From Gemmatirosa kalamazoonensis (lineage in GTDB: Bacteria > Gemmatimonadota > Gemmatimonadetes > Gemmatimonadales > Gemmatimonadaceae): a DNA stretch of 64,000 nt. Each line of letters begins with the position of its first letter. Within the stretch, counting starts at the first letter, position 1. The position numbers were made by a program, and so were the translations under genes. Shown one piece after another: positions 14,069 through 59,776 of this stretch. The notes under the pieces are model-generated. The model searched no databases and was not told the origin of the DNA. It worked only from the letters and a program-made list of their open reading frames with translations. The stretch spans positions 806,001 to 870,000 of the forward strand of contig NZ_CP007128.1 in NCBI RefSeq assembly GCF_000522985.1, written 5' to 3'.

Positions 14069-15067
14069 ATGCGCATCCCATACGACACGCTCCGCGACAC
14101 GCTCGCCACGCTCCTAACGTCGTTAGGCTTCCCCGCCGACGACGCGGCCGAGTGCGCGCGCGTGTTCGCGGACGCGAGCCGCGACGGCGTCGCGTCGCAC
14201 GGGCTCGACCGGGTCCCGCGGTTCGTCGGCATGGTGCGCGACGGCGTCGTCGATCCCGCGGCGCGACCGGTCACCCTGGCCACGCACGGCGCGCTGGAGC
14301 GGTGGGACGGTCGGCGCGGCGCCGGGCCGCTGAACGCGGGCCGCGCGATGGACCGCGCGATCGCGCTCGCCCGCGCGCACGGCGTCGGCTGCGTCGCGCT
14401 CGGCAACACGAACCACTGGATGCGCGGCGGCACCTACGGCTGGCAGGCCGCGGACGCCGGCGTGGTCGGGCTCTGCTGGACGAACACGCTCCCCAACATG
14501 CCGCCCTGGGGCTCGGCCGTGCCGAGGCTCGGCAACAACCCGCTCGTCGTCGCCGTGCCGCGCGCGGACGGACACGTGGTGCTCGACATGGCCATGTCGC
14601 AGTTCTCCTACGGCGCGCTCGCCTCGCACCGCCGGCGCGGCGAGCCGCTCCCCGTGCCGGGCGGCTTCGACGAGGCCGGCGCGCTCACCACCGACCCTGC
14701 GGGCATCGAGCGGTCGGGGCGCGTCCTGCCGATCGGCTACTGGAAGGGGAGCGGGCTGTCGCTCGTGCTCGACCTCGTCGCCGCGCTGCTCGCCGGCGGG
14801 CGGGCGACCCACGAGATCCCCACCGACCCGGCGCGCGAGAGCGGGCTCTCCCAGCTCTTCCTCGCGATCGACCCCGCGCTCGGCGACGGACCCGGCTCGA
14901 CGATCGTGGACGCGGTCGTCGACGACCTGCACCACGCGACCGGCGCGCGCTATCCCGGCGAGCGGGCGCTCCGCACGCGCGAGGTCAGTCTGCGCGACGG
15001 CGTGGCGGTCGACGACGAGGTGTGGACGCTCGTCCGGAGTTGGGTCGAGAAGGGAAGCATTTCGTGA
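14069..15067 (+). CDS. dlgD: Ldh_2-family oxidoreductase, likely 3-dehydro-L-gulonate 2-dehydrogenase
   Basis: A 332-residue NAD(P)H-dependent 2-oxoacid reductase of the malate/L-lactate (Ldh_2) family. Residues SHG(L)-R near 45, GNTNHWMRGGTYGWQAA, CWTNTLPNMPPWG, MSQFSYGAL and PIGYWKGSGLSLVLD match the YiaK/DlgD branch, which reduces 2,3-diketo-L-gulonate (3-dehydro-L-gulonate) in sugar-acid catabolism. No other genes of that pathway are nearby, so the physiological substrate stays open. Two inverted octamers sit near the N-terminus (14113-14128). The following small gene is on the same strand. Confidence 0.85.
   Translation: MRIPYDTLRDTLATLLTSLGFPADDAAECARVFADASRDGVASHGLDRVPRFVGMVRDGVVDPAARPVTLATHGALERWDGRRGAGPLNAGRAMDRAIALARAHGVGCVALGNTNHWMRGGTYGWQAADAGVVGLCWTNTLPNMPPWGSAVPRLGNNPLVVAVPRADGHVVLDMAMSQFSYGALASHRRRGEPLPVPGGFDEAGALTTDPAGIERSGRVLPIGYWKGSGLSLVLDLVAALLAGGRATHEIPTDPARESGLSQLFLAIDPALGDGPGSTIVDAVVDDLHHATGARYPGERALRTREVSLRDGVAVDDEVWTLVRSWVEKGSIS
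14113..14128. repeat. Inverted pair of the CGTTAGGC octamer
   Basis: CCTAACG at 14113-14119 is followed by CGTTAGGC at 14121-14128, forming a short hairpin-capable pair inside the dlgD coding region (about codons 15-20). Confidence 0.8.
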
Positions 15068-15541: not shown

Positions 15542-17215
15542 TCAGCGGACGGGCCCCTCGCTGCTCGCCTGCGCCAGCGCCCGCAGGCTCCACCGCTCGG
15601 CGTCCTCGAGCAACCGGCCGAGCACCACCGTCGCCTCGAAGACGCGCTCGTCGTCGTCGCGCGGAAAGCAGCGGCGGCAGGCGCGCAGCAGCTCCTCGCG
15701 CAGCACCACGTACTCGCGCCGCAGCTCGTCCTCGGTCCACCCGAGCCGCGCGCGCTGCTGCCCATGGCGCTCCGCCACGAGCCGGCGAATGTCGGCCCCA
15801 TCGTCGAGGATCGACGACGGCTGGCCGGCCGAGTCCTCGAGCACCATCAGCGCGCCGGCGATGTCGGCGACGAGCGTGGCGGCGTGGTCGGCGAGCTGCG
15901 AGAAGCGGAGGTCGCGCGCCGCGTCCGCCACCGGCTCCACGCGCAACCGCTCCACGAACGTGTCGACGATCGTCTCGACCTCGCGGAGCAGCGCGTCGCC
16001 CACCTCGCCCATGCCGCGCACCACCGGATCGCGTCCGCTGAGCGACGCGAGCCGCCCGGGCGCGGGCGGCGCGTCGGCCGCGGGCAGCCACACCGTGAAC
16101 GTCGACCCCTCCCCGAGGGTGCTGCGCGCCGTCACGTCGCCGCTCATGAGCCGCGCCAGCCGCCGGCTGATCGCGAGCCCGAGCCCCGAGCCGTCGCGCC
16201 CGCGCGTGAGCCCGTGGTCCCCCTGCACGAACGGCGCGAAGACCCGCTCGAGCTGATCGGGCGCGATGCCCTTCCCCGTGTCCTGCACGCGCAGCGCGAT
16301 CCACGGCCGAGCGCCGTGCAGCTTCGCCTCCGCGTCCGGCCGCGCCGTCGTCTCCACGACCACCGTCACCGACCCGCCGGCCGGCGTGAACTTCACCGCG
16401 TTCGACAGGAGGTTCACGAGGATCTGCCGCACGCGGTGCTCGTCGGCGAGCACCACGAGCCGCGCGTCGCGGTCCACCCGCGCGGAGAGCGTGAGGCCGT
16501 GCGCCTCCGCCATCGGCTGCACGAGCACGAGCGCCGCGTCCACCGCCGGGATGACGGCGATCGGCACGCGCGTCACCGTGAGCCGTCCCGCCTCGACGCG
16601 CGCGAGATCGAGGATCTCGTTCACGAGCTCCAGCAGGTGCCGGCCGCTCGCCACGATGCGCTCGAGCTGCTGCCGCTGGGCGTCGGTGAGCGGCCCGCCG
16701 ATGCCGAGCGACAGCAGGTCCGCGTAGCCGAGCACCGCGTTCAGCGGCGTGCGCAGCTCGTGGCTCATCATCGTGAGGAACTGGCTCTTCGCCTGGCTCG
16801 CCGCCTCCGCCTGCAGGCGAGCCGAGCGCTCCTCGCCGAGCAGCCGCTCGCGCTCCTCGGCCAGCTTGCGGTCGGTGACGTCGCGCAGCGAGACGAGCGA
16901 CGCCTGCACGCCGTCCCACACGATGTCGACGGCGCGCAGCTCCGCCGTCACGACGTCCCCGCGGCGCACGACCTCGATCTCCGTCGTCCCGCCGGCGACG
17001 AGCGGGAAGCCGAACGGCGCGCCGGCGAGCGTGTCCGCCGACCGCTGGAACAGCGCCTCCGCCGCCGGGTTCACGAACCGGATCGTCCCCGCGCGGTCGA
17101 CGACGACGATGCCGTCGGCGAGATGCTCCACGATCCCGCGCAGCACGTCCTGCGCGGGCGGCTGCGGTGCGGCGCCGTCCGACGGCGGCGACTCGGGGCG
17201 CATGACGCCGCTCAC
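15542..17215 (-). CDS. PAS-containing sensor histidine kinase of the kai operon with C-terminal RsbRD_N-like domain
   Basis: A soluble kinase of 557 residues (GTG start) or 553 (ATG at 17203). It has a PAS domain at about 25-135 (ADGIVVVDRAGTIRFVNPAA), a short coiled coil, HisKA with the phospho-acceptor His in MMSHELRTPLNAVLGY, and HATPase_c with N (NLLSNAVKF), G1 (DTGKGI) and G2 (GSGLGLAI) boxes. The last ~150 residues form a helical domain (ERHGQQRARLGWTEDELRREY) resembling the globin-like RsbRD_N domain. There is no receiver or membrane segment. The GTG overlaps the kaiC stop (GTGA), so it is coupled to kaiC and is a candidate output partner of the Kai proteins. Confidence 0.88.
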   Translation of the reverse strand: MSGVMRPESPPSDGAAPQPPAQDVLRGIVEHLADGIVVVDRAGTIRFVNPAAEALFQRSADTLAGAPFGFPLVAGGTTEIEVVRRGDVVTAELRAVDIVWDGVQASLVSLRDVTDRKLAEERERLLGEERSARLQAEAASQAKSQFLTMMSHELRTPLNAVLGYADLLSLGIGGPLTDAQRQQLERIVASGRHLLELVNEILDLARVEAGRLTVTRVPIAVIPAVDAALVLVQPMAEAHGLTLSARVDRDARLVVLADEHRVRQILVNLLSNAVKFTPAGGSVTVVVETTARPDAEAKLHGARPWIALRVQDTGKGIAPDQLERVFAPFVQGDHGLTRGRDGSGLGLAISRRLARLMSGDVTARSTLGEGSTFTVWLPAADAPPAPGRLASLSGRDPVVRGMGEVGDALLREVETIVDTFVERLRVEPVADAARDLRFSQLADHAATLVADIAGALMVLEDSAGQPSSILDDGADIRRLVAERHGQQRARLGWTEDELRREYVVLREELLRACRRCFPRDDDERVFEATVVLGRLLEDAERWSLRALAQASSEGPVR

Positions 17216-18732
17216 GTTCCCGCGTCCGCCCCCTCGTTCGCCGCGGCGTCGGCCATCGGCGTGTGCATGCCGGAGAGGATGCCGTGCACGCCGCGGAACT
17301 GCGACCGGATGTGCATCCCCGTGCCGTCGATCTCGTACTCGCGGATGTCGTGGTCGTGCAGCGAGCCGCGCATCTTCAGCATCGCGATGCTGCGCCGCAG
17401 CTGACCGTCGAGCTCCACGTAGCGCAGCAGGATGATCGAGTCGGTGAGCGTGGAGATGTGCTTCTCGGTCACGCTGCCGCCGCCGAGCAGGTTCGGTGTC
17501 GTGGAGGTCAGCAGCCCCGCCGTCTCCTTCTGCTTCAGGAACGACGTGAAGCTGATGACGAACTCGCGGAACGAGCGCAGCGTGAACACGCGCTCGAGCG
17601 CCGACAGCGAGTCGACCGCGACGCGGCTCGGCCGGAACTCGTCGACGAGGCGCCGCATGCGGACGAGGTGGTCCTCCATCGGCATCGCGTGCGGGTACGT
17701 GTTCTCCACCCGCAGCAGCCCGTCGCGTTCCGCGCTCTGGAAGTCCATTCCCCACGCCTCGGCGTTGCGATAGAGCTGGTCCCGGCTCTCCTCGAACGCG
17801 AATAGCAGGCATCGTTCCCCACGCGCGAAGCCGCCGGCGAGGAACTGCGTGACGAGGAGCGTCTTGCCGGTGCCCGTGGCGCCCGAGCAGAGGATGATCG
17901 AGTCGCGGAAGAATCCCCCGCCGCACATCGCGTCGAGCTCCGGGATGCCCGAGCTGATGCGCGTGGTGCTCGACGTCTGCGTGAGCTCCTGCGCCGTGAG
18001 CGGGATGACGACGATGCCCTCGTCCTGGATCGTGAACGGCACCTCGCCGCGCTCGTGGTGCGCGCCGCGGAACTTCAGGATCTCCATCGTGCGACGGCGC
18101 CGCTCGTCGGCGAGCACGTTGCGCAGGATGACGACGTTATCGGCGACGAACTCCTCGATGCCGAAGCGCGTGATCTCGCCGTAGTCCGCGGTGCGCTCGC
18201 CGGTAAACACGAGCGTCACGCCGAGCTGCTTGAGCCCCGTGGTGAGGCGCAGCAGCTCGGAGCGGAGCATCGCGCGGTCGGGGTGCTGGAGGAACAGCGC
18301 GTTCAGCGAGTCGAGCACGACGCGCGTCGCCTGCGTGCGCTTCACCGCGTGCTCGATGCGCGCGACGAGCGCGCCGAGGTCGTAGGCGCCGACGACGGTG
18401 AGCGGCTCGCTCGGGTCCGGCGTGGCGTCGATGAACGTCCACTTCCCCGCGCGCTCCCACGCCGGGATGTCCCAGCCGAAGCTGACGACGTTGCGGCGCA
18501 CGTCCTCGGGGGCGTCCTCGAACGTCACGAACACCCCGGCCTCGCCGGCGGTGGTGATCCCGCCGGCGAGGAAGTGCGTCGCGAAGATGGTCTTCGCGCT
18601 CCCCGCGGTGCCGGCGACGAGCGTCGCGCGCTGCCGCGGGAGGCCGCCGCCGGCGATGATGTCGAAGCCGGGGATGCCGGTCGGGAGACGCGTCACCTCC
18701 CCGGAGCGATTCGTGGGGGACGATGACGTCAT
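17212..18732 (-). CDS. kaiC: KaiC, double-domain RecA-like ATPase/autokinase
   Basis: A full-length two-domain KaiC of 506 residues. The CI Walker A is GTAGSAKT (41-48) and CII is GATGTGKT (284-291). The catalytic acidic pair is E72-D73 in CI (normally EE) and E314-E315 in CII. The phosphorylation loop HISTLTD is intact, with S427 and T428 equivalent to S431/T432 of the cyanobacterial protein, and T422 equivalent to T426. The C-terminal KaiA-binding A-loop tail of the cyanobacterial protein is missing: after HGILSGMHTP only a short Ala/Gly-rich end remains. kaiB lies upstream with an ATGA overlap and the kinase downstream with GTGA. The protein may work as a KaiA-independent timer or stress regulator. 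Confidence 0.95.
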   Translation of the reverse strand: MTSSSPTNRSGEVTRLPTGIPGFDIIAGGGLPRQRATLVAGTAGSAKTIFATHFLAGGITTAGEAGVFVTFEDAPEDVRRNVVSFGWDIPAWERAGKWTFIDATPDPSEPLTVVGAYDLGALVARIEHAVKRTQATRVVLDSLNALFLQHPDRAMLRSELLRLTTGLKQLGVTLVFTGERTADYGEITRFGIEEFVADNVVILRNVLADERRRRTMEILKFRGAHHERGEVPFTIQDEGIVVIPLTAQELTQTSSTTRISSGIPELDAMCGGGFFRDSIILCSGATGTGKTLLVTQFLAGGFARGERCLLFAFEESRDQLYRNAEAWGMDFQSAERDGLLRVENTYPHAMPMEDHLVRMRRLVDEFRPSRVAVDSLSALERVFTLRSFREFVISFTSFLKQKETAGLLTSTTPNLLGGGSVTEKHISTLTDSIILLRYVELDGQLRRSIAMLKMRGSLHDHDIREYEIDGTGMHIRSQFRGVHGILSGMHTPMADAAANEGADAGT

Positions 18733-19022
18733 GCGAGCTCGCTGGTCGGTCCTTCGATGAGGTCGAGCGCGTACAGCACCCGCTCGGCGTCGGAGAGGTC
18801 GCCGGTCGCTCGGCGCATCGGGCCGGGAGCCTCCTTCACGACGGTGGGCGTGGTGAGGACGCGCGCCGCCTCCGCGCTCTCCGGGTCCACCAGCACGTCC
18901 ACCACGACGAGCTCGTAGCGTCCCTGCAGCCGCTCCTCGCCGATGCGGCGCAGGTTCGCGATCGCCTGGAGCGACCGCGACGAGCGGCCGGCGACGAAGA
19001 GCCTGAAGAGGTAGCGGACCAT
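18729..19022 (-). CDS. kaiB: KaiB, fold-switching clock protein
   Basis: A 97-residue thioredoxin-like KaiB. The N-terminal strand Y-L-F-R-L-F-V-A-G, the helix with LQAIANLRRI, VVVDVLVDPE, T-T-P-T-V-V-K and the hallmark GDLSDAERVLYALDL all match the family. KaiB binds the CI ring of KaiC. An ATG with a strong GGAGG about 9 bp upstream (reverse strand) sets the start at 19022; the longer open frame upstream is not needed. It is the first gene of the kaiB-kaiC-HK operon; its stop overlaps the kaiC start. No kaiA is present in the window. Confidence 0.95.
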   Translation of the reverse strand: MVRYLFRLFVAGRSSRSLQAIANLRRIGEERLQGRYELVVVDVLVDPESAEAARVLTTPTVVKEAPGPMRRATGDLSDAERVLYALDLIEGPTSELA

Positions 19023-57975: not shown

Positions 57976-59776
57976 GCGACGGCAGCCCGGGCGCCGTGAG
58001 AGCCGCCCGGCGACGCAGCCGCACCCGCAGCCCCACCGGGTGCATCGTGAACGCGAACGCCTCGCGCACGTCGCTCGCCCCGTCCGCGCGCTCCACGTCG
58101 AACGCCGAGTAGAGCGTCGCGAGCACGAGCCGCATCTCGAGCAGCGCGAGCGACCGCCCCGGGCAGATCCGCGGCCCCGACCCGAACGGCAGGAACACCG
58201 ACGGATCGTGCGCCAGCGGTCCTCCGTTAGGCAGCGAGCCGTTAGGCAGCTGCCCGTTAGGCAGCCACCGCTCCGGCCGGAACGCGGCCGGGTCGCCGAA
58301 GTGCCGCGCGTCCACCGCTGGCGGCCGCGTGAGCAGCGCCACCCACGTTCCCTTCGGCACGGCGACGTCGCCGATCACCACGTCGCGCGTCGCCGCGAGC
58401 AGCACCACGGGCGCGACCGGACGCAGGCGCATCGTCTCGTTCGCCACCGCGCCCGCGTACGCGAGCCGATCCGCCGCCTCGATGTCCGGCGGCGCTGCGC
58501 CCGACCCGATGCCCGCCGCGTCGGCCTCGGCGCGCAGCCGCTCCACCACGTCGGGCGCGTCGCACAGCTGGTGCACGGCCCACGCGAGCGTGTACGCCGT
58601 CGTGTCCTCGCCGGCGAGCAGCATCGTCATCGCGTTGCCGAAGATCACCTCGTCGGGGAACGGGTTCCCGTCCGCGTCGCGCGCCGCGAGCATCGACTCG
58701 AGGAAGTTCTGCGGCGCCTCGGCGCGCGACGGCTCGGCGGCGAGCCGCGCGCGCGTCTCCGCCACCAGGTCGCGCAGCCACACGCGCAGCTCCGCGACGG
58801 CGCGGTCCACGCGTCGGTCCGCCGGCAGGCGCACCCACCGCCACGTCGGGAGCAGCGCGAACAGCCGCCGGTTGAACGCCGGGAACACCTGCCCGAGGTG
58901 CCGCTGGATCGCGTCGTCGTCGCGGCCGATCGTGTCGACGTCGCGCCCGAACACGAGCATGCTCGTGACGTCGACGGTGAACCGCTTCATCTCCTCCGCG
59001 ACGTCGAGCGTGGCGCCGGCGTCGGCCTTCGCCTCCCAGCGGCGCCGCAGCCGCGCCGTCACGTCGGCGAGCGTCGCGTAGAAGCCGCGCAGGTTGCGGT
59101 GCGACAGCGCCTGCATCGCGAGCCGTCGCTGCGGGCGCCATGCGTCGCCTTCGGCCGAGAACAGGCCCGCCACGCCGAGCTCGCGGAACACCGGCGCGAT
59201 GTTCGGCGAGCGCCGGAACGTCTCCGGCCGGTCGCGCAGGATCGGCTCGATCAGCTCGGGGCGCGACACGGTGAGGATGCGGTTCGGCCCCACGCGGTAG
59301 AGGAACAGCGGGCCGTACTCCGCCGCCCACCGCTCCACCGTCTCGTGCACGCGCGAGATGTCGATCTGGTGCAGGTTGCCGACGATCGGCAGCGGTCGAG
59401 GTCCCGGCAGGTCTTCGAGCCGGCGATGCGCGCGCGCCGGAGCGGCGCTCGCCGCCGTCTCGCGCAGCGCCGACGTGTCGGCCCACAGCTCGTCCCCGCG
59501 CCGCGCCAGCGGGCATCGCGCGAGGCACTCCGGCCCGCCCTGCCGCGCCCCCGTCGCCGCGTCGAATCGCCACCGGTGGTTGCGGCACACCAGCGCGTCG
59601 CCGTCGAGCTCTCCCTCGCCGAGCAGCGCGCCCTGGTGCGGGCACCGGCCGGCGTACGCGTGGTGCTCGCCGCGCACGCGTACGACCACGAGATCCACGC
59701 CGTCCGCCGACAGCGCGAACGGTCCGTCGCCCGGCAGATCGGCGAGATGCGCGATGCGGTTCCACGACTCGGACAT
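57923..59776 (-). CDS. Rieske [2Fe-2S]-cytochrome P450 fusion
   Basis: A 617-residue single polypeptide. An N-terminal Rieske domain (about 5-105) has C45-P-H47 and C64-x2-H67 ligands. A short linker (RRLEDLPGPRPLPIVGN) leads into a complete P450 with the I-helix AGEDTTAYTLAW, ExxR in NETMRLRP, PERW, and the haem-thiolate loop FGSGPRICPG (Cys538). Rieske components can deliver electrons, so the fusion may be self-sufficient apart from a reductase. The loop after PERW contains LPNGQLPNGSLPNGG, encoded by three tandem octamers. The 3' end overlaps the kinase gene by 53 bp in antisense. Confidence 0.9.
   Translation of the reverse strand: MSESWNRIAHLADLPGDGPFALSADGVDLVVVRVRGEHHAYAGRCPHQGALLGEGELDGDALVCRNHRWRFDAATGARQGGPECLARCPLARRGDELWADTSALRETAASAAPARAHRRLEDLPGPRPLPIVGNLHQIDISRVHETVERWAAEYGPLFLYRVGPNRILTVSRPELIEPILRDRPETFRRSPNIAPVFRELGVAGLFSAEGDAWRPQRRLAMQALSHRNLRGFYATLADVTARLRRRWEAKADAGATLDVAEEMKRFTVDVTSMLVFGRDVDTIGRDDDAIQRHLGQVFPAFNRRLFALLPTWRWVRLPADRRVDRAVAELRVWLRDLVAETRARLAAEPSRAEAPQNFLESMLAARDADGNPFPDEVIFGNAMTMLLAGEDTTAYTLAWAVHQLCDAPDVVERLRAEADAAGIGSGAAPPDIEAADRLAYAGAVANETMRLRPVAPVVLLAATRDVVIGDVAVPKGTWVALLTRPPAVDARHFGDPAAFRPERWLPNGQLPNGSLPNGGPLAHDPSVFLPFGSGPRICPGRSLALLEMRLVLATLYSAFDVERADGASDVREAFAFTMHPVGLRVRLRRRAALTAPGLPSLRGARPDAAATSRGRAP
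58225..58262. repeat. Triple tandem CGTTAGGC octamers inside the P450
   Basis: Exact copies at 58225-58232, 58240-58247 and 58255-58262, spaced 15 bp apart. In the coding direction each reads CTGCCTAACGG and encodes L-P-N-G, giving a fifteen-residue surface-loop repeat. Confidence 0.9.

Follow-up and report, generated by a model that had tools for sequence, protein, structure and literature searches.

A stretch of 64,000 nucleotides from the genome of the soil bacterium Gemmatirosa kalamazoonensis (positions 806001-870000 of contig 2, hereafter the window) contains an operon of kaiB, kaiC and a PAS histidine kinase gene. We interpret it, with a probability of roughly 0.6, as a KaiC3-type KaiBC signalling module that would work without KaiA, as a switch of hourglass-like behaviour or of energy state, and that would be read by the PAS kinase. 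The three genes overlap, the catalytic and phosphorylation sites of their products are intact, KaiA is absent, KaiC is without its KaiA-binding tail and the linkage to the kinase is conserved. Statements about the whole genome refer to the complete 7,479,215-base sequence, which comprises four contigs and is rated 100% complete.

Results

An operon with intact KaiB and KaiC

Coordinates, junctions and Pfam/NCBIfam matches bear out the three-gene operon proposed in a preliminary description of this DNA, and the 4-base overlaps between the genes, ATGA and GTGA, can be read directly from the sequence. KaiC exceeds the cut-offs of two NCBIfam models (NF006799, 677 bits against a cut-off of 408; TIGR02655, 586 bits against 546) and has two tandem ATPase domains. 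The CII catalytic residues E314-E315, K453 and R455 and the CI residues K220 and R222 are present, as are all three residues of the phospho-loop that had been reported as retained (T422, S427 and T428). The CI catalytic pair is indeed E72-D73 rather than E-E. Within our comparison set this pair is restricted to one Gemmatimonadota clade, in which 13 of the 14 thinned members carry it (L023 is the exception), the other proteins listed having E-E. One correction concerns the Walker A motifs, both of which had been described as kept: the CI P-loop reads GTAGSAKT, with alanine replacing the usual glycine before the lysine, a replacement common among KaiC3-type proteins.

KaiB, which had been described as intact, gives a match above the cut-off to PF07689 (72.3 bits, cut-off 27, E 2.8e-20), while its matches to two cyanobacterial KaiB models of NCBIfam fall below their cut-offs; it is the only KaiB-domain gene product of the genome. 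By alignment it retains P59, P66 and P68, the three prolines that have been tied to fold switching (PMC11551320), and carries R54, A85 and D87 at the positions of K57, G88 and D90 of Synechococcus elongatus KaiB, with alanine therefore standing at the G88 position (the meaning of these residues is taken from PMC5520375 and PMC11551320). An AlphaFold2 model of KaiB has a thioredoxin-like, KaiC-binding topology, a result that does not discriminate which state the free protein prefers.

Assignment of KaiC to the KaiC3 type

Judged by sequence, the window KaiC is of the KaiC3 type, neither a KaiC1 nor a long-tailed KaiC2 as in Rhodobacter. Cyanobacteria with two KaiC proteins provide the reference for this assignment: the KaiC adjoining canonical KaiA shares 51-53% identity with the window KaiC, whereas the other, whose response-regulator-KaiA3 gene lies upstream of kaiB or elsewhere, shares 60-64%. 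The phosphorylation sites are S-T as in KaiC3, not S-S as in KaiC2. A KaiC phylogeny, which had been suggested as a check, places the protein in the KaiC3-type branch (support 89), separate from KaiC2 and from KaiC1, the branch of the latter having support 100; this is a quick tree that leaves several deep forks open, including the deep KaiC3 branches. Synechocystis KaiC3 is absent from the tree set, and the type is assigned from KaiA3 neighbours and from identity.

Within the collection of papers searched, none was relevant to KaiC in Gemmatimonadota. KaiC matches at E <= 1e-100 occur in 29 of 395 genomes of the phylum, one of them (G044) being of KaiC2 type, and the KaiC3-type proteins fall into two separate clades. 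Members of clade A, which includes the window KaiC (support 99), are about 70% identical to it and have kaiB, kaiC and the kinase gene all on one strand; those of clade B are about 60% identical, and their kinase gene is mostly divergent and upstream of kaiB. In Betaproteobacteria (L050, L071), a KaiC3-type cluster and one with a long-tailed KaiC2-type protein lie no more than about 5 kb apart.

Absence of KaiA and of the KaiA-binding tail

The preliminary description had assumed that kaiA is missing and had named a kaiA gene elsewhere in the genome as evidence against its view; genome-wide searches with two kinds of model came back empty. The Pfam KaiA model (PF07688) reports nothing in this genome or in the 395 genomes of the phylum, with a positive S. 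elongatus control. As a sole test, however, it was rejected, since the Roseiflexus response-regulator-KaiA3 proteins go unreported even at E 1. To capture the KaiA3-type proteins that this model misses, we built a wider KaiA/KaiA3 profile from the KaiA3-type C-terminal domains encoded upstream of kaiB. This profile recovers the KaiA3-type genes of Roseiflexus, Chloroheliaceae and Crocosphaera, and canonical KaiA and the non-cyanobacterial domains match in a profile-profile comparison (E 8.8e-6, probability 83). It finds nothing in the genome of the window, where all 50 candidates were scored and the best reached E 0.71, and nothing in any of the 395 phylum genomes, for which part of the candidates were scored.

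KaiC had also been described as lacking the A-loop tail. The A-loop itself is kept, with VHGILSGMHTP aligned to YERIISGSPTR of cyanobacterial KaiC1, but the conserved KaiA-binding peptide behind it is gone and 14 unconserved residues stand there instead; this loss is a trait of the whole group. A C-terminal motif, R-x3-[LM]F, is present in 38 of the 39 KaiC proteins whose kaiB adjoins a KaiA-domain gene, and absent from 37 of the 42 without such a neighbour (a count that includes L032, L034 and L035 from outside the KaiC3-type branch). The association is strong when kinship is left uncorrected (Fisher p 2e-16). A genome-wide search of the five motif-bearing exceptions revealed a KaiA3-type gene elsewhere in all five, and the same gene type was found in none of eight motif-less proteobacterial genomes searched. 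Motif and KaiA are jointly absent in well separated lineages, including Gemmatimonadota clade A and a proteobacterial group.

KaiA has been regarded as exclusively cyanobacterial (PMC5520375), and KaiA3 orthologs have been reported in five genera outside Cyanobacteria (PMC11372060). We find KaiA-domain genes upstream of kaiB in Chloroflexota, Nitrospirota, Acidobacteriota, Myxococcota, Bacteroidota, Ignavibacteriota, Planctomycetota and Pseudomonadota, and the gene order kaiA-kaiB-kaiC in the KaiC1 and KaiC3 branches alike. As this order is common to both kinds of loci, loss of KaiA in Gemmatimonadota appears likelier than primary absence; and since many KaiC3-type relatives in other phyla have an upstream KaiA gene together with the matching motif, the lineage of the window probably lost KaiA and the KaiA-binding tail together and does not represent a primitive KaiBC system.

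Several observations accompany this survey. In many non-cyanobacterial phyla, a gene directly upstream of kaiB encodes a fusion of a KaiA-type C-terminal domain with a response-regulator or PAS domain, and Pfam KaiA misses these proteins (examples in Table 1). One Nitrospirota genome has tandem kai clusters (L088:754-6434): next to a kaiA-kaiB-kaiC cluster stands the gene of a divergent KaiC, which comes with a kaiB and a KaiA-type gene of its own. The KaiC proteins of clade B (L016-L022, L024-L031, L033) have no KaiA and keep a conserved, diverged tail, SPxDLERxWxxFD (peptide DLERIWSQF); as this tail is conserved without KaiA, another molecule may bind it.

A conserved PAS kinase as likely partner

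The kinase comprises PAS (residues 25-69 matched), HisKA (142-210) and HATPase_c (258-380) domains according to Pfam. Its phospho-acceptor, His152, lies in an HELRTP box, and the motifs for ATP binding are intact. Its N-terminus is the PAS domain, and the KaiB-like sensor domain of the SasA type is absent. All 34 KaiC3-type loci examined in Gemmatimonadota have a kinase with a window-like PAS within 800 bases of kaiBC, in one of two arrangements; some of the six named loci come from the same species as loci of the phylum search, so that about 29 are distinct. Because the linkage persists through rearrangement at every one of these loci, the sequence comparison makes the kinase the likely partner of KaiBC, in support of what had been proposed from the overlaps. 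A PAS kinase also follows kaiC on the same strand at 31 loci outside Gemmatimonadota and at none of the cyanobacterial ones (at L013 the PAS sits downstream, contrary to what the list of nearest hits suggests). No other kinase of the genome has a good match over the PAS part.

A globin-like fold is predicted for the 167-residue C-terminal domain of the kinase. Its AlphaFold2 model is all-helical (predicted local distance difference test score 88) and superposes on the DosC globin domain with Z 14.4 over 135 residues at a root-mean-square deviation of 2.5; the top structural matches are globin-coupled sensor domains, with weak Foldseek E values (best 0.015). The RsbRD_N model scores 15.1 bits, below its cut-off of 24.3, a sequence search of the PDB gave no credible match, and histidines 54 and 94 (domain numbering) are invariant in the alignment. 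Further kinases encoded in this genome have the domain too, and it is hence not specific to kai.

This domain was considered as a hidden KaiA and rejected, as it has no profile similarity to KaiA/KaiA3 (hhalign probability 0.1). More broadly, it is very unlikely that this domain or another protein substitutes functionally for KaiA by binding the A-loop and stimulating KaiC: although the A-loop is retained, and the extra domain is all-helical like the helical C-terminal domain of KaiA, that hhalign value, the lack of the binding peptide in KaiC, the presence of the domain on other kinases and its absence from the kai-linked kinases of family f6 within the loci covered all argue against such a role.

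Elsewhere in the genome (L151, C2:1183500-1190500) lies the gene of a further KaiC-like ATPase, distant at about 27% identity. The gene that comes after it codes for a histidine kinase that shares 49% identity with the kai-linked kinase in its core; this pair is independent of the kaiBC operon.

Sequence context of the operon

The octamer CGTTAGGC/GCCTAACG occurs at 44 sites in the window, compared with about 0.95 expected from dinucleotides. Its sites, for example those at 14121 and 19113, are distributed across the window and occur in either orientation; at 58225-58262, three copies lie at intervals of 15 bases. We considered integron attC sites as the origin of the octamer and rejected them, the spacing, as far as it shows, not being the paired attC arrangement. 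The site positions confirm that the operon lies in the longest octamer-free interval (4992 bases). The suggestion of later acquisition drawn from this gap does not stand, as with 44 sites a gap of at least 4988 bases arises in about 77% of random placements (P ~0.77) and the G+C content is ordinary (operon 72.5%, window 72.8%). An Rfam scan of the window gave zero matches.

That the cluster is decaying or recently acquired and functionless is very unlikely: its patchy distribution, with matches in so few of the phylum genomes (29/395), would fit such a history, but the frames are open, the catalytic residues intact and the G+C ordinary, the cluster is conserved clade-wide over at least two families, and the octamer gap is expected by chance.

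Table 1 Positions of the kai operon features in the window, and of KaiA-type fusion genes at other loci (locus:positions).
Feature	Position	Strand	Remarks
kaiB	19022-18729	minus	97 residues; Pfam match and open reading frame
kaiC	18732-17212	minus	506 residues; two RecA-like domains (CI, CII); KaiC3-type by sequence
PAS histidine kinase	17215-15542	minus	soluble, 557 residues; GTG start overlapping the kaiC stop
CI catalytic pair E72-D73	18514..18519	minus	E-E in relatives outside the clade
Phospho-loop T422, S427, T428	17449..17469	minus	invariant in 17 KaiC3-type proteins of alignment A1
A-loop region GILSGMHTPM	17254..17283	minus	kept; from alignment
C-terminal KaiC tail MADAAANEGADAGT	17215..17256	minus	unconserved; occupies the place of the KaiA-binding peptide
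PAS domain of kinase	16871..17143	minus	part conserved in kai-linked kinases of other phyla
C-terminal kinase domain	15545..16045	minus	all-helical, predicted globin-like fold; weak RsbRD_N similarity
Fused KaiA-type gene	L044:3752-4600		
Fused KaiA-type gene	L105:3736-4671		
Fused KaiA-type gene	L102:3275-4465		
Fused KaiA-type gene	L095:3278-4669		

Discussion

Autophosphorylation of KaiC3 proteins does not depend on S. elongatus KaiA, their A-loop is without the residues that keep it buried (PMC5520375), and their ATPase activity is lowered by KaiB (PMC6989803). In the mechanism that we propose, the window KaiC would form a hexamer whose A-loop would no longer wait for KaiA, so that autophosphorylation on S427/T428 would need no activator. 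KaiB would switch fold, bind the CI ring and move KaiC towards dephosphorylation, and the state of the two proteins would be set by the nucleotide balance and the time since the last shift. The co-transcribed PAS kinase would read this state, add signals of its own through its PAS and C-terminal globin-like domains, and hand its phosphate to a response regulator, the outcome being an hourglass-like or energy-state switch. The constitutive autokinase, the action of KaiB, the contact between KaiC and the kinase and the hourglass behaviour are the parts that we infer.

A search of the genome found no photosynthetic reaction centre, so that a light-driven hourglass is doubtful and the cue would be something other than the photosynthetic swing in adenosine tri- and diphosphate (ATP/ADP) known from Rhodobacter. 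A light-driven ATP/ADP cue is thus unlikely; temperature, feeding or oxygen are candidates.

The same absence in a soil heterotroph would also suit a system that is not a timer at all, a plain stress or metabolic module in which KaiC is an ATP/ADP-responsive scaffold gating the kinase without hour-scale behaviour. The sensor domains that the kinase has of its own would fit such a module, as would the link with stress response and dark growth reported for KaiC2 of Legionella and KaiC3 of Synechocystis (PMC5520375, PMC6989803). We nevertheless judge it unlikely, since the fold-switch prolines of KaiB and all the phosphorylation sites of KaiC, features linked to slow switching, are kept.

Several points weigh against the KaiA-independent switch that we favour and the history proposed for it. 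One motif-bearing Microcystis genome shows canonical KaiA only; the occurrences of motif and KaiA are phylogenetically non-independent, leaving four independent pairs on starred branches for which a sign test is not significant; and the preference for KaiA loss over gain is drawn from gene order, with the deep KaiC3 branches open. Moreover, the operon has no response regulator, and D73 together with the alanine of the P-loop could change the CI ATPase.

Among known systems, Synechocystis KaiA3B3C3 and its relatives (PMC6989803, PMC11372060) belong to the same KaiC branch, at the identity to cyanobacterial KaiC3-type proteins given above (60-64%), and share the S-T phosphorylation sites and an expected kinase activity independent of canonical KaiA. 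They differ in that the window has no KaiA3-type gene, has lost the tail motif and carries the E-D pair, and in that its kaiBC is co-transcribed with a PAS kinase, which the cyanobacterial KaiC3 loci lack. The hourglass of Rhodobacter (Cereibacter) sphaeroides KD131 (PMC10076222) likewise combines kaiB, kaiC and a histidine kinase without KaiA, but belongs to a phototroph, has another gene order and an HWE kinase, and its KaiC is of KaiC2 type and 39% identical. The long coiled-coil tail that does the work of KaiA in Rhodobacter (PMC10076222) is absent here: from position 477 the window KaiC has 30 residues, compared with 104 in R. sphaeroides, and thus falls short of the roughly 50-residue extension of KaiC2. 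With the S. elongatus KaiABC oscillator the window shares the architecture of KaiB and KaiC, the phosphorylation sites and the A-loop, whereas S. elongatus has a KaiC1, an adjacent KaiA, a conserved KaiA-binding tail and output via SasA, whose KaiB-like domain the window kinase lacks. The kaiB-kaiC-PAS kinase loci of Planctomycetes and Chloroflexota (e.g. Aquisphaera giovannonii) have the same three kinds of genes adjacent, but in another order, and many Chloroflexota loci add a KaiA-type gene.

A fuller picture, which we hold only tentatively and at less than even odds, is that of a KaiC3-type system secondarily without KaiA and tail, which would have kept its autokinase without KaiA or the coiled coil of the Rhodobacter type and would keep time for a soil bacterium that is not phototrophic, acting by way of a dedicated kinase with PAS and globin-fold domains, with KaiA-domain proteins ancestral to the KaiC1 and KaiC3 branches and present in many phyla outside Cyanobacteria.

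The tail motif offers a simple sequence rule that would predict whether a KaiC works with KaiA. The host is cultured and apparently non-phototrophic, which would make it testable whether Kai systems time anything other than energy swings driven by light. If KaiA was lost here, not every KaiBC-only system would be primordial, a point that bears on the origin of the cyanobacterial clock.

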